Below are positions 5,912 through 16,599 of a DNA stretch of 64,000 nt, one piece after another. A program made the position numbers and the translations under genes. Position 1 is the first letter of the stretch; each line of letters opens with the position of its first letter. The notes below the pieces were generated by a model that was not told where the DNA came from, did not search any database, and saw only the letters and a program-made list of their open reading frames with translations. The stretch covers positions 186,001 to 250,000 of the forward strand of contig NZ_JAGGJF010000001.1 of assembly GCF_030466405.1 (NCBI RefSeq), given 5' to 3'. The DNA comes from Pseudidiomarina terrestris. GTDB taxonomy: Bacteria; Pseudomonadota; Gammaproteobacteria; Enterobacterales; Alteromonadaceae.

Positions 5912-6421
5912 TCATCTTCGCACATTCAAAACGAATTCCGCACAAACGCGCTGATGCCACGTCTCAGTGAAATTATCTCGAAGCGTAACTTTCCGACTCG
6001 CGTTAGCCAAACGGTAGACCTGTTCAAGAGATACCAAATGATCACGCCAACCGTATTCAATAGCTAAGCGCATAGGGTGCCGATCTGGGCTGGACAAGAA
6101 CCATACTTCCGCACCAAGTAGCAGGCTTGCTTGTGTTAAAAGGTGACGTTCACCGTCGTCAACGTCGGCGATCCCCGAATACTGCATCGAGGCAAGCAAT
6201 ATTTGTTCATCCCCAGGCGAGTATATCTTCATCTTTTCCCGCAACAACATCTCATCAATAGTGAACTTAGGGTCTCTATTCTGTGCGCCCGTTTGAGTTT
6301 CAATAATACACATGTCAACGGTCGCTAAGTTCAAGCATCCCATCATCTCGTTCAATATCGACACTCGATGAGCCTCAATGATCACATTTGTATCCACTAA
6401 AATCAGATCGTCCCTGTTCAT
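5912..6421 (-). CDS. PIN-domain protein, probable toxin-like ribonuclease
   Basis: A 169-residue protein starting with the PIN signature LILVDTNVIIE (Asp10). Further acidic residues follow in family positions: Glu41 (IIETQ), the cluster IADVDDGERHLL (Asp86-Glu91) and SSPDRHP (Asp113). PIN domains are Mg-dependent RNases and often serve as toxins. It lies 17 bp downstream of an Xre-ImmA gene on the same strand, so the two probably form one transcript in which the upstream protein controls the PIN protein. Assignment to a toxin-antitoxin system is inferred from gene pairing. Confidence 0.75.
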   Translation of the reverse strand: MNRDDLILVDTNVIIEAHRVSILNEMMGCLNLATVDMCIIETQTGAQNRDPKFTIDEMLLREKMKIYSPGDEQILLASMQYSGIADVDDGERHLLTQASLLLGAEVWFLSSPDRHPMRLAIEYGWRDHLVSLEQVYRLANASRKVTLRDNFTETWHQRVCAEFVLNVRR

Positions 6422-6438
6422 CCCTCTTCCTTCCCCGA

Positions 6439-7545
6439 TTAGATATCAAACGGTACGGCCATATCATGCTGCTCGAAGGCGCACCGCAAGGCATCAATCG
6501 AGATGCCTAAAATGCTGGCAACACGGCGTACAGAAATCAGGCCATGCTGAATTCCCTCTGACAAAACGGACAAATATGACTCACTCAAAAGCTTATGAGG
6601 CTTCAAGTTCTCAGTGTCACCATTGCCCGGAGCACGGTCTTGTTCAAGCATCCGCTTCGCTTCGGTGGTTGTCAAACGCTCTAAAGCCACGAGGCGCCAC
6701 ACCAACGCCTCGACGGATACCTCGAAATCATTAGCAACTGGCATCAATGATTCGATTGACAATGCCTCAGGCAAGACAGCAAGAAGCTCCTGCGCAGGCA
6801 TTAATAGTGCCCCAGCAAATGCATCAGCGAGTTGTTCAATACGCGAACGCTTGCCTCCAGCATTCATTTGCACACGATCGATATGGTTAGGCTTCATTGT
6901 GCGCCAAGTCAGACAATGAAAGAGTTCATGAGCTTTATCAAAATTACGCCGGCCACGAACCTGATTCGCGTTGATGACAGCCAACAACGCTTCATCGGAG
7001 ACCATGGCAGCACCCGAAATATGAGCTGGCAAATCCAGATAAATACAATCAACATGCATGGCATCGAAAAGCTTATGGAGAACTTGACCCGGGCGATCAC
7101 CTAGCTTGAATTCTGCTCCAATTTTTTCAGCCGCATTCTGTGCATCCTCATAAGAGTTGCGCTCCCCCAAAGGTAAAGACGAAATCGCTACTGGCGTGAT
7201 ATTTAGCTTGCGCCGCAAGGTCGTCATCAAATTTAAAATCCGTCGTCCGCGTTCTTCAAAATCAACAAAAGCGGCACCCTCGTTGTCAGTGCGCCAACTA
7301 AATTCAACATCTATTGCTGGCTCGAACGCGTCAAGAAAGGCCATGGGTTGCACTTGCAATGCTTGTGCAAAACGCGTCAATTCGTCGGGTTTAACCAGAC
7401 GCTCGCCACGCTCAATGTCAGATAGCGTTTGCCGCTGATTAAATTCCATGAGTTCACTCAGCGCTTGCTGTTTGAGGCCAAGACGCTTACGAAAATAGGT
7501 AATGCGTTGCGCAATCAGGTGTTGCTGTTCGGTTTGACGTTCCAT
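6439..7545 (-). CDS. Xre-type regulator fused to ImmA/IrrE metallopeptidase
   Basis: A 368-residue protein. Residues ~10-65 form a Cro/CI-type HTH (YFRKRLGLKQQALSELMEF, then RQTLSDIERGERLVKP). Residues ~130-290 are a COG2856 ImmA/IrrE zinc-peptidase domain with HELFH (206-210) and a downstream Glu in EQLADAFAGALLMP. The C-terminal ~80 residues include a second HTH-like segment (VRRVASILGISIDALR). Such proteins control mobile elements or partner PIN-type toxins by repressor cleavage. The PIN gene follows at 17 bp. The clear HTH and intact metal motif suggest an active regulator-protease. Confidence 0.85.
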   Translation of the reverse strand: MERQTEQQHLIAQRITYFRKRLGLKQQALSELMEFNQRQTLSDIERGERLVKPDELTRFAQALQVQPMAFLDAFEPAIDVEFSWRTDNEGAAFVDFEERGRRILNLMTTLRRKLNITPVAISSLPLGERNSYEDAQNAAEKIGAEFKLGDRPGQVLHKLFDAMHVDCIYLDLPAHISGAAMVSDEALLAVINANQVRGRRNFDKAHELFHCLTWRTMKPNHIDRVQMNAGGKRSRIEQLADAFAGALLMPAQELLAVLPEALSIESLMPVANDFEVSVEALVWRLVALERLTTTEAKRMLEQDRAPGNGDTENLKPHKLLSESYLSVLSEGIQHGLISVRRVASILGISIDALRCAFEQHDMAVPFDI

Positions 7546-8388: not shown

Positions 8389-8523
8389 ATGCGTAATTTA
8401 ATAGATTTCTTCAGCGCACACCCAGAAAGAGTAAGAGCCACAATTCCCAACGCGCTTAGAAACCAGAAGTTTGAAATGGGGGAGAATGACAAAATCTTAC
8501 TCCGCAAAAGAAGATTGCTTTAA
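8389..8523 (+). CDS. 44-codon chimeric small ORF, doubtful
   Basis: An ATG one base after the preceding stop opens a 44-residue frame (MRNLIDFFSAHPERVRATIP...). It spans the duplicated lipoprotein scar at 8415-8463 read in antisense, so its middle is recycled DNA. There is no good ribosome-binding site; it may be only a chance frame. Confidence 0.25.
   Translation: MRNLIDFFSAHPERVRATIPNALRNQKFEMGENDKILLRKRRLL
8415..8473 (-). repeat. Duplicated 5' scrap of the DUF2846-like lipoprotein gene
   Basis: 8415-8463 equals 5396-5444 with one mismatch, and 8459-8473 equals 5526-5540. The joint is at GAAAC, a 5-bp sequence present on both sides of an 86-bp interval in the other copy; that interval includes the start codon. 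The scrap therefore lacks an initiation site. Confidence 0.85.
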
Positions 8524-8704
8524 GTTTCAGTAAGTAAGCAAGCACTCACCGTACAGACCTTGTTAAATAAAGGGTCGCAAACCCAAAAAAATCAACAGAG
8601 CCGAGGTCTGACCGGTTTGTTTTTGATTGTACTCTGCCCAACTCGGTGGAAGAATGAGCATGCAAGTCACCTCAAGTAGAGGGCGCTTGGTTGTACAACG
8701 TTGA
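8524..8704. other. Intergenic region with no recognisable feature
   Basis: AT-rich DNA upstream of the riboswitch. It presumably carries the promoter for the pilus operon, but I cannot place -35 and -10 boxes with confidence. Confidence 0.5.
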
Positions 8705-8800
8705 GTTGATAAAAGGCAAAATCATCGAAAGGTGATGACGCAAAGTTACCTGTCTAAAGGCTGCTATGCAAAAGCCCATGATCGAGGAACCACCACACAA
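8705..8800 (+). ncRNA. c-di-GMP-I riboswitch (GEMM-I aptamer)
   Basis: The core elements of GEMM-I appear in order: GGCAAA (8715-8720), a 6-bp stem ATCATC/GGTGAT closed by a GAAA tetraloop (8721-8736), the diagnostic GACGCAAAG (8737-8745), then a second hairpin holding a TCTAA...ATGA tetraloop-receptor-like pair, and GAGGAACC (8784-8791). Established GEMM-I aptamers bind cyclic di-GMP. It ends ~130 bp before the pilin ATG at 8932. AAAAGCC in the aptamer (8770-8776) is complementary to GGCTTTT at 8835-8841, a possible expression-platform switch. It probably couples Csu-type pilus synthesis to c-di-GMP. Confidence 0.85.
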
Positions 8801-8931
8801 TGTTTAAGCGAGATATCTACGTTTTTATAGCTGTGGCTTTTCGGAAGACATTCTACTAGTTGAATACTTCTTCTCAAGGTTGTTCTTTATGCGTATTACT
8901 GCGCTCACAGTTGTTTTTGTGGAGAACACAT

Positions 8932-9390
8932 ATGAAAAAGCTAATCTTAACCTCTCTTATCGCTACTGGTGTAATGTCTGCAGCGCACGCAGCAACGGAA
9001 ACGTCCACGTTTCAAGTGACCGCTGAAGTTGCCGCAAGCTGTCAAATTACCACCAACTCATTAGCCTTTGGTTCATTTGACCCATCTGTAGGAACAACAG
9101 GTTCTGCGAGCCTCGACGTTGCTTGTACGTCCGGCTCAACAGGTACGGTCACCCTGGAATCAGGAAATATGTGGGCGATGTCAGACGGTACCAACTCGCT
9201 GAACTATGCTTTGTATACCGATGCAAGTCATACCTCGGTGTGGAACAACGTAACAGCATCGCAATCAGTGACGGGCGCGGGTCTTGCGACTCCGAGCACC
9301 TTCACCGTTTACGGTAAAATCGACGCACAACCGGCAGCAACTGTCTCTGCTGGCTACGCCGATACTGTTACGGTCACAGTAACTTACTAA
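8932..9390 (+). CDS. Csu-type major pilin, spore coat U domain
   Basis: The ATG at 8932, preceded by GGAG, gives a 152-residue precursor with a signal peptide ending AHA-A. The mature protein is an SCPU-domain pilin: a Cys pair (SCQITT and VACTSG), an Ig-like fold and the terminal strand YADTVTVTVTY that serves in donor-strand exchange. SCPU proteins form the shaft of archaic chaperone-usher (Csu) pili used in surface attachment. It is the first gene of the operon, behind a GEMM-I riboswitch. Its 3' end contains a 14-bp tandem duplication (9381-9407), and a strong hairpin follows at 9446. Confidence 0.9.
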   Translation: MKKLILTSLIATGVMSAAHAATETSTFQVTAEVAASCQITTNSLAFGSFDPSVGTTGSASLDVACTSGSTGTVTLESGNMWAMSDGTNSLNYALYTDASHTSVWNNVTASQSVTGAGLATPSTFTVYGKIDAQPAATVSAGYADTVTVTVTY

Positions 9391-9407
9391 AAGCAACTTA
9401 CTAAAAG
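9381..9407 (+). repeat. 14-bp tandem duplication at the pilin stop codon
   Basis: AACTTACTAAAAG occurs twice (9381-9393 and 9395-9407). The first copy carries the pilin stop; the second copy carries an extra TAA-containing run before the chaperone ATG. Confidence 0.85.
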
Positions 9408-9410
9408 AAA

Positions 9411-10172
9411 ATGAGCCTTTTAAATCTGACAAAAGGCCGTGAAAAGCAGGCTAGCAACTCTAGCCTGCCTTTTTATCAACGGTTCAAAATTTCTATTTTC
9501 ATCACCCTGCTTACCCTGGTCGGCTGCTCTGCAGTTCAGGCAAACACCTTGGGCGTCTCACCCGTGCGTGTGGAGCTGTCAGCAGCAACACCGCTGGCAT
9601 CCATTACGGTGACCAACTCAAGTGATCAGGCCAAAACGATTCAGCTGAGTCTTTTCGAATGGCGTCAGCAGGGCCAGGAAACCAGCTTAACCGCAACCAA
9701 AGAACTGATTGCGGCACCGCCCATTGCCGAAATCCCACCCCACCAGACACAAATTGTGCGGGTTGGCCTGCGGGCGCAGCCTGATGCGCAAACGGAAAAG
9801 TCGTACCGGCTGATGATCAGGGAACTACCGCCACAAGACAATGTTGGCATCGCGATTACCTTACGCATTTCTATTCCGGTGTTTGTAGCCCCCGAACAAG
9901 CTGCCGAACATCAGTTGCAGTGGCGGCTTGAAACGCGTGATAACGCGACCTTTCTGGTCGCCCAAAATACTGGCACCGCGCACGCGAAAATTAACGAACT
10001 TGAAGTAGAGCAACCCGTGCTTGCTCAGTCCGCACCAACCGGCAATATCTATGTATTGCCCGGCAGCTACTATGAATGGCAGCTGCAAGACAGTGTCAGT
10101 CAGTACCCAGAAATTGTCGTTCAAGCAAGGATTCATGACGATAGAGTTTCGACCACGCTATCGACGCAGTAA
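9411..10172 (+). CDS. Periplasmic pilus chaperone (PapD/CsuC-like)
   Basis: A 253-residue protein with a signal peptide (hydrophobic residues ~28-45) and two Ig-like domains. LGVSPVRVELS, FEWRQQ, PPIAEIPPHQTQIVRVGLR and KSYRLMIRELPP are chaperone hallmarks; the family-typical Arg/Lys anchor the subunit C-terminus. It delivers pilin subunits to the usher. The ATG at 9411 has a weak ribosome-binding site, and the N-terminal ~20 codons include an intrinsic terminator hairpin (9446-9468). No other ATG, GTG or TTG lies between the hairpin and the signal peptide, so 9411 is kept. Confidence 0.88.
   Translation: MSLLNLTKGREKQASNSSLPFYQRFKISIFITLLTLVGCSAVQANTLGVSPVRVELSAATPLASITVTNSSDQAKTIQLSLFEWRQQGQETSLTATKELIAAPPIAEIPPHQTQIVRVGLRAQPDAQTEKSYRLMIRELPPQDNVGIAITLRISIPVFVAPEQAAEHQLQWRLETRDNATFLVAQNTGTAHAKINELEVEQPVLAQSAPTGNIYVLPGSYYEWQLQDSVSQYPEIVVQARIHDDRVSTTLSTQ
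9446..9474 (+). terminator. Strong intrinsic terminator/attenuator inside the chaperone 5' region
   Basis: GCAGGCTAG-CAACT-CTAGCCTGC, a perfect 9-bp stem, is followed by CTTTTT. It lies 56 bp after the pilin stop, within the first codons of the chaperone. It should reduce read-through into chaperone and usher, so pilin mRNA exceeds assembly-gene mRNA. Confidence 0.8.
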
Positions 10173-12503
10173 ATGATGTTGTCCGTCGCCCGTACCTTAG
10201 CCTTGCTGCTGACGCTTGCCGTTGCTGCCCTGTTCGGCGCTGCGCCGCAAGCGCAGGAATCTACCGCTGTGGAAGAACTCTGGGTCGATGTTACGCTGAA
10301 CCGGCAACAGGGCTTTGGCACTGTATTGGCGCTGGTCCGCGAGGGCGACGTATTGCTTGCGGCAGGTGACCTGAAGCGCTGGCGGGTGGAGTTACCCGAG
10401 CAAGCGACTCTGCAGCACTACGGCGAAAGTTATTACTCACTTAAGCAACTGAATACCGAGTACAACCTCAATCGTTCGCTCATGCGCTTAAGTTTGGAGC
10501 TCCCTCCCGAGCTTTTCAGCGAAAGTAAGCTGCAAGGCTACCAGCGGCCGCCCATCGAGTTATCGCCCTCGGCGCCGGGCGCCTACTTCAATTACGATGT
10601 CACAGCGACCCATGACACCTTCATGACCAGCGCCGCCGGGTTTCTCGAGCTAGGGCTGTTCAACGCGTGGGGAAGTTTGAACCAGACCTCAGTGCATAGG
10701 TACAACAGCGATGCCGCGGACACTGAATCATTGCGACTGAACACCGTCTGGCGTAGCGATTTCCCCGAGCGGATGAACTCCTTGTACATCGGTGATTTCG
10801 TTACCCGTTCGGCCGGCTGGAGTCGTGATGTGCGTCTGGCCGGGATCAAATGGGAAACGAATTTTGCCACCCAGCCGGAAATGATCAAAGTCCCGACGCT
10901 TGCCTTTACAGGCCTGGCAACCGAACCTTCGACGGTCGATCTCTATATCAATGACGCCCTGCGCTTTCGTCAGCGGGTGCCCACCGGCCCCTTTGCCATC
11001 GACGAGCTGCCGTCAATTACCGGGTACGGCGATGTGCAATTGGTAGTTACGGATCTGCTGGGCCGGCAACGTGCGATCTCGCAGAGCTACTTTACCGCCC
11101 GCCGTGCATTGCGGGCGGGGCTGCACGACTATTCCTACGCCCTGGGTACCGTTCGCCAGGACTATGGCCTGAACAGCGGCGACTACAGCAACTGGCTGGC
11201 CGATATCCACCACCGCTACGGTGTCAGCAATGACTTCACTGCTGAGGTGACGGCGCGACTGAGCGATGATTACCAACAACTCGGCGTCAGTGGCATTCAG
11301 GCCTTACCATGGCAGAATTCCATGACCTTCGCCCTGGTCGGCAACCATCATAGCCAAGGCAAAGGGCAACTGCTGCAACTGGGGCTGCAACATCAACGTC
11401 GTCAGTTTAACTTCGGTGTCGACGCGCAAAAAGCTTTTGCGGACTTTCGCATCAGTCCGCGGATTCAGCAGCAGCCACTGCCGTATCCCAAGTTGCAGCT
11501 GAGGTCTTACCTAAGCGTGTCGGGTACGCCTTTGGGCAACTTACGCCTGGCCTACACCCGTCAGCAGCGCGACGATGAAAACCTGGCCTTTATGAACGCC
11601 GGACTCACCAAGCACCTGCCGGGGCTGGGCCACTTATCCCTGCATGGACTCAAGTTTTTCAAAGGTGAGCAAGACTTTCAGCTCTCGCTAGCGCTGAACA
11701 TTCCTTTCGGCAAAGGCGCAAACTTCAGCACCGGCGCAACCCATTACACCGAGCGCGATACTGCGTTTATGCAAGTGCAACGGCAAACTCCGGTGGGGCA
11801 CGGCGTGGGTTATCGGCTGCGCCAGGGCTTTTTCGATCGGCCGCGCAGCCAGGCTGACTTAAAATTCAATAGCTCGGTGGGCAGCTTTGCCGCCAACTAT
11901 TCGCGCACTGACAATTTACAGGCGTATCGCGCCACAGCCAGGGGCTCACTGAGTTACGTCGGCGGCTACCTGTCGTTAGGTCAGCCGGTGCGTGACAGCT
12001 TTGGCCTGGTGCATGTGCCGGGCACCGAAAACGTGCGGGTTTACGCCGAAAACCAGCATATTGCCACCACAGATGAGGAAGGCTTTGCCTTTATTCCACG
12101 CTTGCGCGCCTACCAGCGCAACCGCATACGCCTTGATGCGACAGACTTTCCCCTCAGTACCACGGTGGCTACCTTACAGCGCGAAATCGCACCGTATCAC
12201 CGCAGCGGCGTCGTGATCACCTTCCCCATCGCCAGCTCTGCCAGCGTGATGCTGAACCTTGTCAACGCGGAAGGTGCTTTTATTCCCGTTGGCGCCAAAG
12301 CCTACCTTGCCGGGCAGGATGACCCCGTACCGGTGGGGTATGAAGGCTTACTCTACCTGACCGATAGCCAGGGCAAGCAGCAGGTTGAAGTGCATTACCA
12401 GCAAAATGGCGAAATGCAGCAATGCCTGCTTGAATTTGAGGTACCGCAAGATGGCACCAGCCTGCACGATTTAGGAAAGCGCACATGCGACGCCTCGGTG
12501 TAA
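10173..12503 (+). CDS. Outer-membrane pilus usher (FimD/CsuD-like)
   Basis: A 776-residue usher with signal peptide (residues 1-28, AQA cleavage region), an N-terminal chaperone-binding domain (VDVTLNRQQGFGTVLALVREG...), a long beta-barrel with plug, and C-terminal domains (GLVHVPGTENVRVYAENQ, RNRIRLDATDFPLSTTV, REIAPYHRSGVVITFPI). It forms the assembly pore for the pilus. The length is typical of archaic Csu ushers. It begins immediately after the chaperone stop, and its 3' end overlaps the next gene by 19 bp. Confidence 0.93.
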   Translation: MMLSVARTLALLLTLAVAALFGAAPQAQESTAVEELWVDVTLNRQQGFGTVLALVREGDVLLAAGDLKRWRVELPEQATLQHYGESYYSLKQLNTEYNLNRSLMRLSLELPPELFSESKLQGYQRPPIELSPSAPGAYFNYDVTATHDTFMTSAAGFLELGLFNAWGSLNQTSVHRYNSDAADTESLRLNTVWRSDFPERMNSLYIGDFVTRSAGWSRDVRLAGIKWETNFATQPEMIKVPTLAFTGLATEPSTVDLYINDALRFRQRVPTGPFAIDELPSITGYGDVQLVVTDLLGRQRAISQSYFTARRALRAGLHDYSYALGTVRQDYGLNSGDYSNWLADIHHRYGVSNDFTAEVTARLSDDYQQLGVSGIQALPWQNSMTFALVGNHHSQGKGQLLQLGLQHQRRQFNFGVDAQKAFADFRISPRIQQQPLPYPKLQLRSYLSVSGTPLGNLRLAYTRQQRDDENLAFMNAGLTKHLPGLGHLSLHGLKFFKGEQDFQLSLALNIPFGKGANFSTGATHYTERDTAFMQVQRQTPVGHGVGYRLRQGFFDRPRSQADLKFNSSVGSFAANYSRTDNLQAYRATARGSLSYVGGYLSLGQPVRDSFGLVHVPGTENVRVYAENQHIATTDEEGFAFIPRLRAYQRNRIRLDATDFPLSTTVATLQREIAPYHRSGVVITFPIASSASVMLNLVNAEGAFIPVGAKAYLAGQDDPVPVGYEGLLYLTDSQGKQQVEVHYQQNGEMQQCLLEFEVPQDGTSLHDLGKRTCDASV

Positions 12504-12931
12504 AGCAATTGGTCTACGCCACGGCTCTGGCACTGTGGCTAGGTAACTCCAGCGCTTTGGCGAGCTGCCTGGTGTCGGCGCAAGGCGTCAGTTTTGGCAG
12601 CCACGATAGTTTGGCCAGTGCGCCCACCGAGAGCACCGGCGTCGTTGAGGTCAGTTGTGACACCCAAACCAGTTATAGCATTTTACTGAGCGCTGGCTCT
12701 GGCACTTATAGCGAACGCAAAATGTTCAACGCTGAACATGCACTTAGCTACAACCTGTATACCGCCCCCACGTATTCGTTTATCTGGGGGGATGGTTCCG
12801 GCGCGACCGCCACGGTCAGCGGCACGACCTCGACCACTCAATTGCATGACATCTATGGACGTGTGCCAGCTGGGCAGGAGGTCGCCGTGGGTGTTTACAG
12901 CGACACGATTATGGTGACTATTGAGTTTTGA
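12485..12931 (+). CDS. Second SCPU-domain pilus subunit, possible tip adhesin
   Basis: A 148-residue secreted protein with a signal peptide and an SCPU domain: paired Cys (ASCLVSAQGVSFG and VEVSCDTQ), LSYNLYTAPTYSFIWGDG, HDIYGRVPAGQEVAVGVYSDTIMVTIEF. The last strand is the polymerisation strand. In Csu-type operons the final SCPU protein is usually the tip adhesin (CsuE-like), but those are two-domain proteins of ~300 or more residues; this one has a single domain and could be a minor subunit. It overlaps the usher gene by 19 bp. Confidence 0.82.
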   Translation: MRRLGVKQLVYATALALWLGNSSALASCLVSAQGVSFGSHDSLASAPTESTGVVEVSCDTQTSYSILLSAGSGTYSERKMFNAEHALSYNLYTAPTYSFIWGDGSGATATVSGTTSTTQLHDIYGRVPAGQEVAVGVYSDTIMVTIEF

Positions 12932-13025: not shown

Positions 13026-13049
13026 GCCCCGCAGCAGAACTGCGGGCTA
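13026..13049 (-). repeat. REP-like palindrome, copy c
   Basis: Read leftward, TAG-CCCGCAG-TTCTG-CTGCGGG. The TAG is the stop codon of the aminotransferase gene, so the element begins exactly at the gene end. Confidence 0.75.
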
Positions 13050-14222
13050 CTTCGATGCGAGCGCCAGCACTTCGCGTACGACGGCGCAGGTTTTCTCAAT
13101 TTCGGCAGAGGTCAACGTCGGGTGCACCAAAAACATCAACGATGTCTCACCAAGCTCGCGGGCGACAGGCAATGGCTCTGATGGTCGCCAACCGGTGTCA
13201 TCGAAAGCTTTCTCTAAATACACTTCAGAGCAAGAGCCTTGGAAGCAAGGCACGCCGCGATCAACGATTTCAGAAACGATACGGTCGCGTGTCCAGCCTT
13301 CCACCAAATGCTGAGGCTCAACAAAGCAGTAGTGCTTATAACATGCATGCTCCATGTGCGAAGGCACAGCTGGTGTACGTACCACAGAAAACTCAGAGCA
13401 AGCTTTGGTAATAGCTGCTGTATTGCGCTGACGTGCAGCCGTCCAGTCATTCATGCGGCGCAGTTGAATGCGCCCAATTGCGGCTTGCATTTCCATCATG
13501 CGCCAGTTGGTGCCGAAGCTTTCATGCAGCCAGCGAAAGCCTGGTGGATGTTCGCGCTCGTATACGGCTTCATAACTTTTTCCGTGATCTTTAAATGACC
13601 ACATTTTGCGCCACAGGGCTTCGTCGTTGGTGGTGACCATGCCGCCCTCGCCGCCGGTGGTCATGATTTTGTCTTGGCAAAAGGACCATGCGCCGATGTG
13701 GCCAATGCTCCCCACTGCGCGTCCTTTGTAGCGTGCGCCATGGGCTTGGGCGCAATCTTCAATGACAAACAAACCGTGCTTGTCGGCCAAGGCCATAATG
13801 GCGTCCATTTCGGCAGGACGTCCAGCCAAATGCACCACGATAATGGCTTTGGTGCGCGGAGTGATGACCGGCTCGATGGTGTGCGCTTCGATGTTCTGCG
13901 AGTCACGATCGATGTCGGCAAAGACTGGCGTAGCGCCTGCGTTCACCACCGTTGAAATCGATGCAATAAAGGTACGTGGAGTTACGATAACTTTATCCCC
14001 CTCACCCACGCCCAACGCTTTCAATGCGACATCCAGCGCTAAAGTACCGTTGCCGAGTGCGACAGCATATGACGCATCAGCCCATGCAGCGAACTCCTTT
14101 TCAAACTCGCGGCATTCGGTGCCTGTCCAATAATTTACTTTGTTCGACAGAATGATGTCGTGAACCGCCTTGGCTTCTTCTTCTGTGAATGATGGCCAGA
14201 GTGAGAATGGAGTGTTTAACAT
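13047..14222 (-). CDS. pglE: DegT/DnrJ/EryC1-family aminotransferase (PglE-like)
   Basis: A 391-residue PLP-dependent sugar aminotransferase. GNGTLALDVALKALGVG (cofactor phosphate binding), VIEDCAQAHGARYKG (Asp stacking on PLP) and SFCQDKIMTTGGEGGM (Schiff-base Lys) are all present. With the adjoining acetyltransferase and phosphoglycosyltransferase it matches the Pgl module that makes UDP-di-N-acetylbacillosamine from UDP-GlcNAc. The 4,6-dehydratase (PglF) needed to make its substrate is not in the window. It is the last gene of the 25-kb leftward run, 15 bp after the acetyltransferase. The exact sugar is inferred. Confidence 0.82.
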   Translation of the reverse strand: MLNTPFSLWPSFTEEEAKAVHDIILSNKVNYWTGTECREFEKEFAAWADASYAVALGNGTLALDVALKALGVGEGDKVIVTPRTFIASISTVVNAGATPVFADIDRDSQNIEAHTIEPVITPRTKAIIVVHLAGRPAEMDAIMALADKHGLFVIEDCAQAHGARYKGRAVGSIGHIGAWSFCQDKIMTTGGEGGMVTTNDEALWRKMWSFKDHGKSYEAVYEREHPPGFRWLHESFGTNWRMMEMQAAIGRIQLRRMNDWTAARQRNTAAITKACSEFSVVRTPAVPSHMEHACYKHYCFVEPQHLVEGWTRDRIVSEIVDRGVPCFQGSCSEVYLEKAFDDTGWRPSEPLPVARELGETSLMFLVHPTLTSAEIEKTCAVVREVLALASK

Positions 14223-14237
14223 AAAACGAATAATTTC

Positions 14238-14858
14238 CTATCGCTTGATGAGAGCTGCGGGTGAGCCGACAATGGTCTGCTTATCGCCTACGTTGCGAAT
14301 GACAACTGAACCAGCACCAACAGTAACGTCGTCGCCTATTTTAACTAACTGAATAACCGAACTACCCATGCCGATCCAGCTGAAGCATCCAACGCGAACC
14401 CCGCCAGCAAGCGTGGCATTTGGACAAATATGTGAGTAATCACCAACTAAGCAGTCATGCTCAACCACGGCACCTGAGTTGACGATAACTCCCTCTCCGA
14501 TAACAACATCCGCATTGATAACCGCGTTGGGCATGACAATACTTCCCTTACCCAGTCTAACTGATGGACTGACCACTGCAGATGGGTGAACCAATGCAGA
14601 CGAAACACTCGCGAGTCGTTGTTGTATTGCAGCGCGCTTTTTGGCATTGCCAATTGCAACAATCGAGACGTCATAATTCGTCGTAGCATCCTGTGATGCA
14701 CTGGCAACATTTCCAAGTACGGGGTAGCCATAAAGCTCACCGATTTCTTTCCAACGATCGTCATAGAATGTAATAGTTTCACAACCAAGCGACCGCGCAA
14801 TATCGGCTATAACTTTTCCATGCCCACTTGCACCAATAATTGCGAGACGCTTAATCAT
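14238..14858 (-). CDS. pglD: Sugar O/N-acetyltransferase, NeuD/PglD family
   Basis: A 206-residue protein with an N-terminal Rossmann-like part (RLAIIGASGHGKVIADIARSLG) and a C-terminal left-handed beta-helix of hexapeptide repeats (VIGEGVIVNSGAVVEHDCLV; the His in EHDC is the family's catalytic base). PglD acetylates the 4-amino group of the UDP-sugar made by PglE using acetyl-CoA. Its ATG overlaps the stop of the phosphoglycosyltransferase gene by 4 bp, and PglE follows, matching the known enzymatic sequence. Confidence 0.87.
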   Translation of the reverse strand: MIKRLAIIGASGHGKVIADIARSLGCETITFYDDRWKEIGELYGYPVLGNVASASQDATTNYDVSIVAIGNAKKRAAIQQRLASVSSALVHPSAVVSPSVRLGKGSIVMPNAVINADVVIGEGVIVNSGAVVEHDCLVGDYSHICPNATLAGGVRVGCFSWIGMGSSVIQLVKIGDDVTVGAGSVVIRNVGDKQTIVGSPAALIKR

Positions 14859-15448
14859 TTCGATGACCCTTTAAACTTTTCAATGGTGACGTGACCCTCG
14901 GCAGAGATCCCCTCACGCTTAAAGACTTTTTTAACAGTCATGAACAAGATTTTGATGTCGAGCCAAAGCGAGCGATTATCAACGTACCATACATCCAGCT
15001 TAAACTTTTCTTCCCAACTAATTGTGTTTCGGCCATTCACCTGTGCCCAGCCAGTGACGCCGGGGCGCACCTCATGCCGGCGCGCTTGTTCAGTGCTATA
15101 AAGCTCGAGGTACTCCATCAACAAAGGTCGCGGACCGACAAGGCTCATATCGCCTTTCAAAACGTTCCAAAGCTCTGGTAACTCATCGAGGCTGGTGGCG
15201 CGGAGGAACGCACCTAATTTTGTAATGCGTTCCAAGTCCGATAACGAGTTACCATTTGCGTCAATGGAATCACGCATTGTCCTGAATTTAATCATGCGAA
15301 AAGGTTGTCCATTTAAACCAGGGCGAATTTGAGTAAAAAGTATCGGCGCTCCAAGCTTAAAACGAATAATGATACTTAACATCAATATTATCGGCGCTAA
15401 AAAGAGCGATCCAAATAACGCCACAAAAAAATCTAATACTCGCTTCAC
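14855..15448 (-). CDS. pglC: Initiating phosphoglycosyltransferase (PglC-type)
   Basis: A 197-residue monotopic sugar-phosphate transferase. An N-terminal re-entrant hydrophobic helix (FFVALFGSLFLAPIILML) precedes the core: IRPGLNGQPFRMIKFRTMRD, LDELPELWNVLKGDMSLVGPRP (the Asp-Glu catalytic dyad) and EVRPGVTGWAQVNGRN. It transfers phospho-sugar from a UDP donor to undecaprenyl phosphate, starting the repeat unit on the inner membrane. The short form without extra N-terminal helices is the PglC/WecP-like class. Overlaps of 4 bp on both sides show tight coupling. Confidence 0.92.
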   Translation of the reverse strand: MKRVLDFFVALFGSLFLAPIILMLSIIIRFKLGAPILFTQIRPGLNGQPFRMIKFRTMRDSIDANGNSLSDLERITKLGAFLRATSLDELPELWNVLKGDMSLVGPRPLLMEYLELYSTEQARRHEVRPGVTGWAQVNGRNTISWEEKFKLDVWYVDNRSLWLDIKILFMTVKKVFKREGISAEGHVTIEKFKGSSK

Positions 15449-16599
15449 TTTTTTATTAATTCCATAGCTTTAAGCATAGACTCATTAACTTTATTCACAT
15501 CGTACTTTTCACATGCTATTTCTCGAGAACGCTTTCCCATTTTTTCGATCAATTCAGGCTCCTTAATAAAGCGCTCCATCGCCAAAACCAATGCTTGCAC
15601 TGACTTAACAGCGACCAAAAATCCATTATCACCATTTACTACTGTTTCCCGGCAACCTGGAGCGTCTGTCGTTATAATAGGACGGCCGTTAGCCATCGCC
15701 TCGAGCACTGTTCTCGGGGTTCCTTCTCGGTAAGAGGGCAAAACATAAACTGAACAATCCTTCAATGCAGGGCGCACATCATCTAACTGGCCTAGATACT
15801 CAATCACTCCTTCATCTTGCCAAGCTGAAATTTCCTCAGCACGAATTGAATCCGGATTTTCGTCTACTGCACCAGCCAATCGAAACAGAATTCTTGAATT
15901 ATTTTCACGTACTTCGCGAGCGGCCCGTACGTACTCTCGGACGCCCTTGTCCCCTAAAAGTCGAGCTATTAGAAGAAAGCTAATTTGTTTTTTAGGTAAC
16001 GGTTCGTTTTTAAACTCTATAAGGTCAACTCCAGAACCATTGACCACCTTTGACGGAACTCGCTGAGGAATCAAGTTTAACTTTCGGAATAATCGCTCAT
16101 CATCTGGGTTTTGAAAGAACACTAGCTCTGCTTTACCTAACGCAACTCCATATAATTTGCGGACAACTTTTTGAACTAGCATACGCTTGCCCCGAGCGTC
16201 ACCCGTGAAGGCATAACCCAACCCCGTAATAAGTGCCACTCGGCGAGGGACCCCGGCCAGCCAAGCCGAAAGGGTGCCGTAAATCACTGGCTTGATAGTA
16301 TATGCCAGCGTCAGATCTGGGCGGACTTTGCGTATCAGTCGGATTAGCTTCGCTAAAGCCATTAAATCTTTGGAAGGATTAATTCGCGCTCGCTCGAAAG
16401 GGAGATCATGGCAGCTTACTCCCCACTCAGATAGCGAATTAACTATCTTTGCGTCTGACAAAAGCTCGGGGGCCGCTGCATGAACTTCCAAACCTGTGTC
16501 GCACAGTGCTTTTATAAGAGGTCCACGAAAATTAATTAATGAACGATTAAAGCCTGCAATAACTAAAACTCGATGTGGCGCTACTTTACTGTTAGACAT
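15445..16599 (-). CDS. Glycosyltransferase family 4 (PglA-like)
   Basis: A 384-residue GT-B enzyme. The acceptor domain starts VLVIAGFNRSLINFRGPL, and the C-terminal donor domain has SFLLIARLLGDKGVREYV and the E-x7-E motif EGTPRTVLE followed by AMANGRPIITTDAPGCRE. It resembles PglA, which adds the second sugar (GalNAc) to the lipid-linked bacillosamine, and its place next to the PglC-type gene supports an early step. Acceptor and donor are inferred. The gene stops within the start of pglC (4-bp overlap). Confidence 0.85.
   Translation of the reverse strand: MSNSKVAPHRVLVIAGFNRSLINFRGPLIKALCDTGLEVHAAAPELLSDAKIVNSLSEWGVSCHDLPFERARINPSKDLMALAKLIRLIRKVRPDLTLAYTIKPVIYGTLSAWLAGVPRRVALITGLGYAFTGDARGKRMLVQKVVRKLYGVALGKAELVFFQNPDDERLFRKLNLIPQRVPSKVVNGSGVDLIEFKNEPLPKKQISFLLIARLLGDKGVREYVRAAREVRENNSRILFRLAGAVDENPDSIRAEEISAWQDEGVIEYLGQLDDVRPALKDCSVYVLPSYREGTPRTVLEAMANGRPIITTDAPGCRETVVNGDNGFLVAVKSVQALVLAMERFIKEPELIEKMGKRSREIACEKYDVNKVNESMLKAMELIKK

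Follow-up and report, generated by a model that had tools for sequence, protein, structure and literature searches.

The P1 stem is the key element of the translational switch Vc2, the c-di-GMP-I riboswitch (RF01051) of Vibrio cholerae, according to the accessible part of PMC9262584. In the same partial account, P1 of the pilM aptamer of Geobacter metallireducens forms only with ligand. GEMM-Ib riboswitches of Geobacter, which respond to cGAMP, belong to the same superfamily, and some of them precede pilus assembly genes, as the available portion of PMC6456294 describes. A G20A mutant has been crystallised in complex with cGAMP (available part of PMC6274999). At the locus described here, an aptamer of the c-di-GMP-I class almost certainly lies, judging from sequence comparison, at 8705-8797 in the 5' leader preceding the four genes of a Csu-type operon in Pseudidiomarina terrestris. 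Positions are those of the window, the whole stretch of 64,000 nucleotides that was analysed.

The initial annotation had assigned this segment to GEMM-I and proposed scoring it with the Rfam covariance model. The sole match in the whole window that reaches the gathering threshold (cmscan) is RF01051 at these positions on the + strand, with 69.0 bits, well past the cut-off of 35, an E value of 1.9e-11 and model positions 1-87, which is the full length. The core elements that had been named, GGCAAA (8715-8720), a GAAA-capped stem, GACGCAAAG and a second hairpin, are present and align to the RF01051 consensus. In the cmscan alignment, G8715 and C8793 stand at the positions that we take to be equivalent to G20 and C92 of Vc2, the residues that contact the ligand; for G20, PMC6274999 also describes this. 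Vc2 likewise has the full-length match, the GAAA-capped stem, GACGCAAAG and these two residues. The window aptamer is an ordinary member of the c-di-GMP-I class.

The aptamer ends 134 nt before the ATG (8932) of the next gene on the + strand, which encodes an SCPU pilin, and genes for a PapD_N chaperone, an Usher/PapC_C usher and a second SCPU protein follow in this order. The Pfam matches give the Csu-type domain set on one strand in the expected order, a succession that we take to denote a Csu-type (archaic chaperone-usher) operon. The placement ahead of such an operon, as originally claimed, is borne out: the SCPU pilin is directly downstream, and the arrangement is conserved in related leaders. 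The features are as follows.

8705-8797, + strand: c-di-GMP-I (GEMM-I) riboswitch aptamer, RF01051
8921-8928, + strand: Shine-Dalgarno region, GGAGAACA, partner of the anti-Shine-Dalgarno stretch described below; the Shine-Dalgarno of the pilin gene reads GGAGAAC (8921-8927)
8932-9390, + strand: SCPU pilin of 152 aa, candidate Csu-type major pilin (Pfam PF05229, E 1.1e-23)
9411-10172, + strand: periplasmic pilus chaperone (PapD_N, E 1.7e-18)
10173-12503, + strand: outer-membrane usher (Usher, E 4.8e-38; PapC_C, E 4.6e-09)
12485-12931, + strand: second SCPU protein, possible tip subunit (SCPU, E 1.4e-30)

No promoter match was found on the + strand in 8400-9450. Upstream of the candidate helix P0 described below, a hairpin CAAGT..GCTTG is predicted at 8663-8689; by eye, genome G007 could form a similar one in other letters, and the transcript may start further upstream. 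The neighbourhood also contains genes of other kinds. Right after the pilus operon, 13047-16599 on the - strand carries genes of a glycan biosynthesis type: a DegT aminotransferase and a PglD-like acetyltransferase by Pfam, and a sugar transferase and a glycosyltransferase recognised by eye only. On the other side, 6439-7545 (- strand) encodes a protein with HTH and Peptidase_M78 (IrrE-like) domains, next to a gene for 169 aa with no Pfam match (5912-6421); this couple (5912-7545, - strand) looks like a regulator or a toxin-antitoxin-type pair.

The riboswitch class is common among relatives, with RF01051 matches in 21 of the 26 genomes of the genus (24 matches in total) and in 258 of the 395 genomes of the family sample. 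Judged by the downstream reading frame, 20 of the 24 genus matches precede type IV pilA, whose start was located in all 20. Two precede a Csu pilin, in this genome and in G007, one a secreted-looking protein (L004), and one lies near a contig end (L024). This genome (2.63 Mb in 14 contigs) thus has two copies, one before type IV pilA and one before the Csu pilin. The former (L002, G000:C6:372475-372586, 51.3 bits) lies in a different leader, before pilA and a PilB-like gene. At L004 (genome G019) and L078 (G288), a c-di-GMP-I match precedes a similar small protein with the motif YDxxGVGFVGKGD and, by eye, a signal-peptide-like start; this protein is a third kind of target besides pilA and the Csu pilin.

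The usher profile matched in 3 of the 26 genomes of the genus and the pilin profile in 9 of the 395 of the family. At 6 of these 9 loci, cmscan places the aptamer ahead of the pilin: those of this genome (G000), G007, G144, G203, G257 and G268, at 134-175 nt from the ATG. It was not found by cmscan at the pilin loci of G019, G042 and G235, of which G019 is not judgeable, because the match sits behind the usher and the contig stops short of the likely operon start. In genus g11, which we infer to be Idiomarina, 5 of 17 genomes have RF01051 matches, and the pilus copies account for 4 of those 5. A scan of the genome collection with the usher returned a single locus, in Pseudidiomarina halophila, on the same contig as that of G007. 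A Csu-like pilin occurs in 22 of the 369 genomes of the class sample, and among the 21 besides this one the aptamer was found upstream in one, G681, from another family, with 80.3 bits (29 of the 43 listed pilin matches scanned, with every one of the 21 genomes represented). None of the 3 other genomes searched in the family of G681 has a pilin match. In the order sample, the pilin occurs in 22 of 295 genomes, 21 besides this one, and the aptamer in none of the 20 pilin loci scanned, the G854 locus being left out. The class and order counts are lower bounds, because the scan reached only about 1.5 kb to each side of a match; where the matched gene encodes a later subunit, a more distant aptamer would escape it.

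The window pilin shares 71% identity with its counterpart in G144 and 33-38% with the pilins of the remaining three g11 genomes, and the genes flanking the operon differ between the window and G007. These features fit a joint transfer of the operon and its riboswitch. Across the six Csu leaders, the aptamers score 63.9-74.5 bits, and five pairs in the aptamer stems have changes on both sides (RNAalifold, six-leader alignment). Conservation in five related leaders and one distant leader adds to the covariance-model score in upholding the GEMM-I assignment, and both the scores and the two-sided changes make it very improbable that the aptamer is a functionless relic or a mere passenger of the operon.

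An A at position 20 is the hallmark of cGAMP-type GEMM-Ib aptamers, and G20 is expected for c-di-GMP; the window has G, at 8715. By a simple pattern, the letter at this position among 59 riboswitch loci is G in 55, A in one (G144) and another letter in three (L004, L039, L078), where the pattern is probably out of register, L078 having G by eye. The Csu-leader aptamer of G144 (L077) has A at the G20 equivalent, in AAGAGCAAA, and the cmscan row agrees. As this genome encodes 39 GGDEF domains, c-di-GMP is very likely made in the cell.

We aligned the six related leaders (window, G007, G144, G257, G268 and G203) from the 5' flank to the start codon. They are not six independent witnesses, because they represent only two lineages. 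A pairing of the 5' flank with a conserved stretch of the leader, enclosing the aptamer, emerged unprompted from RNAalifold. We call this candidate helix P0. Adjoining it, with two bases in common, is a stretch complementary to GAGAACA (8922-8928) in the Shine-Dalgarno region.

8696-8705, + strand: 5' strand of P0, candidate long-range helix, CAACGTTGAG (RNAalifold and shuffles)
8873-8882, + strand: 3' strand of P0, CTCAAGGTTG, 9 of 10 pairs with 8696-8705 (RNAalifold and shuffles)
8881-8887, + strand: anti-Shine-Dalgarno stretch, TGTTCTT

P0 pairs in 93.4% of cells over 11 column pairs, against 34-56% for slid versions. The best 10-column helix between the 5' flank and the leader pairs in 54 of 60 cells, a value that none of 1000 column shuffles (largest 49) and none of 1000 shuffles of three-column blocks (largest 52) attained. 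Covariation in P0 is thin. A double change is present in one pair only, where G203 and G268 have U-A instead of C-G, and at one position three leaders have G.G and the remaining three A-U; the covariation score was matched by 115 of 500 shuffles and the percentage paired by 39 of 500. The duplex energies of single sequences are mostly unexceptional, with between 12 and 242 of 300 shuffles doing equally well, depending on the species and the kind of shuffle (209 and 203 of 300 in G681). Support for P0 comes from the alignment test, and the single-sequence duplex test is not significant in most species. The anti-Shine-Dalgarno stretch pairs with the Shine-Dalgarno region in 90.5% of cells in the six leaders, against at most 71% when slid; its pairs have no double changes and no excess over shuffles in these leaders.

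These helices suggest two alternative folds of the leader. In the first, P0 would wrap the aptamer and leave the ribosome site partly free. In the second, 8881-8887 would lie on the Shine-Dalgarno at 8922-8928 and hide that site. The 5' strand of P0 overlaps the 5' strand of a possible P1 (8699-8708), so that P0 would occupy a strand able to form the P1 stem of the aptamer. Binding of c-di-GMP would favour the hidden state, because the aptamer would be stabilised and P0 disfavoured, and less pilin would be translated. That control acts at translation initiation of the first pilin is fairly likely, and we lean somewhat to the OFF direction, in which c-di-GMP hides the ribosome site. The statement as a whole, a translational riboswitch in the Csu leader through which c-di-GMP lowers pilin translation, is put forward tentatively, given the cost of P1 described below and the combined uncertainty of its parts.

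Calculations on RNA 8640-8960 agree with such a competition. In the free fold, P0 is at -82.2 and the anti-Shine-Dalgarno helix at -80.4 kcal/mol; with the aptamer locked, the anti-Shine-Dalgarno helix is at -78.7 and P0 at -76.6 kcal/mol. Enforcing P1 as drawn by hand (8699-8708 with 8794-8802) gave -73.2 kcal/mol, 5.5 kcal/mol above the locked fold without P1, and a Shine-Dalgarno exposure of 0.46, which is not low. At this cost and exposure, P1 as drawn is unsupported by the fold calculation. The effect of locking was then followed in 36 combinations of RNA ends and temperature per leader, counting changes of more than 0.1 in Shine-Dalgarno exposure. Exposure was lowered v raised in 24 v 2 combinations for the window, 5 v 10 for G007, 13 v 2 for G144, 2 v 0 for G257, 36 v 0 for G268 and 30 v 0 for G203. 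As a control, the segment from the aptamer to the Shine-Dalgarno was shuffled 100 times per leader at one setting. A drop as large was seen in 2 shuffles for the window, 24 for G007, 4 for G144, 30 for G257, 3 for G268 and 14 for G203, so that G007 and G257 are unremarkable by this measure.

The same riboswitch with the opposite sign, in which c-di-GMP would expose the ribosome site and turn the pilus on, is a possible reading, though one we consider less than probable. c-di-GMP generally favours attachment, and this sign would be expected if adhesion follows high c-di-GMP. With the 5' end set 25 nt before the aptamer, the unpaired fraction of the Shine-Dalgarno rose on locking from 0.07 to 0.47 in the window, from 0.37 to 0.55 in G007 and from 0.23 to 0.35 in G144, and it fell in G257, G268 and G203; G007 also has more raised than lowered combinations. 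However, mean exposure drops on locking in five of the six leaders, and the shuffle control is low for three of them. These results lean, weakly and not robustly, to c-di-GMP hiding the ribosome site. The direction implied at the outset, that the biofilm signal promotes the pili, finds no support in the folding, whose tendency towards repression is not decisive.

Control of transcription elongation, for example by Rho or by a weak terminator within the 134 nt of leader, would be compatible with either sign and seems unlikely. The leader is long enough to make it conceivable, and the Cd1 and pilM riboswitches of the aptamer superfamily act on transcription (accessible part of PMC9262584). Nevertheless, a consensus scan of the + strand from 8400 to 9450 detected no intrinsic terminator, and the complementarity of the anti-Shine-Dalgarno stretch is retained in relatives.

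The switch proposed in the initial annotation, between AAAAGCC (8770-8776) in the aptamer and GGCTTTT (8835-8841) 59 nt further on, has complementarity at 7 of 7 positions in the window, as had been noted, but the pairing is not conserved: it falls to 4 of 7 in G007, 5 of 7 in G144 and at most 2 of 7 in G203, G257 and G268. Over the six leaders it reaches 45% of cells, inside the 26-48% range of slid versions, and GGCTTTT is retained in G007 and G144 despite changes in its supposed partner. We did not keep it, and as the switch it is hardly credible. Another pairing, of GAGGAACCACC in the aptamer with GGTTGTTCTT in the leader, appeared when 8705-8950 was folded by itself to minimum energy and was dropped, as with 25 nt of 5' flank its TGTTC part pairs with the aptamer at a probability of 0.02.

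Taken together, these results suggest that an attachment signal probably controls a pilus through the pilus's own mRNA. The known c-di-GMP control of fimbriae is exerted via proteins, and here the signal would act directly on the pilus mRNA. With two pilus systems under one class of RNA sensor in a 2.6-Mb genome, this bacterium is a compact test case for how two modes of adhesion are ordered. Whether control is positive or, as may be the case, repressive would matter for understanding when Csu-type pili come into use. In literature listings and the openings of abstracts, no riboswitch was found in connection with pili of the Csu or chaperone-usher kind, and the novelty seems, as far as this literature goes, to lie in the target and perhaps in the enclosing helix. 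The fuller claim, a first riboswitch-controlled chaperone-usher pilus carried as an intergenus cassette, with an aptamer-enclosing helix, repression at high c-di-GMP and, in G144, a ligand shifted towards cGAMP, is speculative and unlikely to hold in every part.

Klebsiella type 3 fimbriae are chaperone-usher fimbriae, and their regulator MrkH likewise places fimbriae under c-di-GMP; MrkH, however, is a protein activator, whereas the window has an RNA sensor. The type IV pilA riboswitches of the genus share the aptamer class with the Csu leader but serve a different pilus system, and in their 20 leaders RNAalifold pairs the P1 region and shows no helix resembling P0. The pilM riboswitch is a transcriptional ON switch that works via a terminator, in contrast to the window leader, which has none by scan and serves a pilus of the chaperone-usher kind. 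Compared with Vc2, the window riboswitch differs in its target, a chaperone-usher pilus operon, and in its 134-nt leader with a candidate helix enclosing the aptamer.
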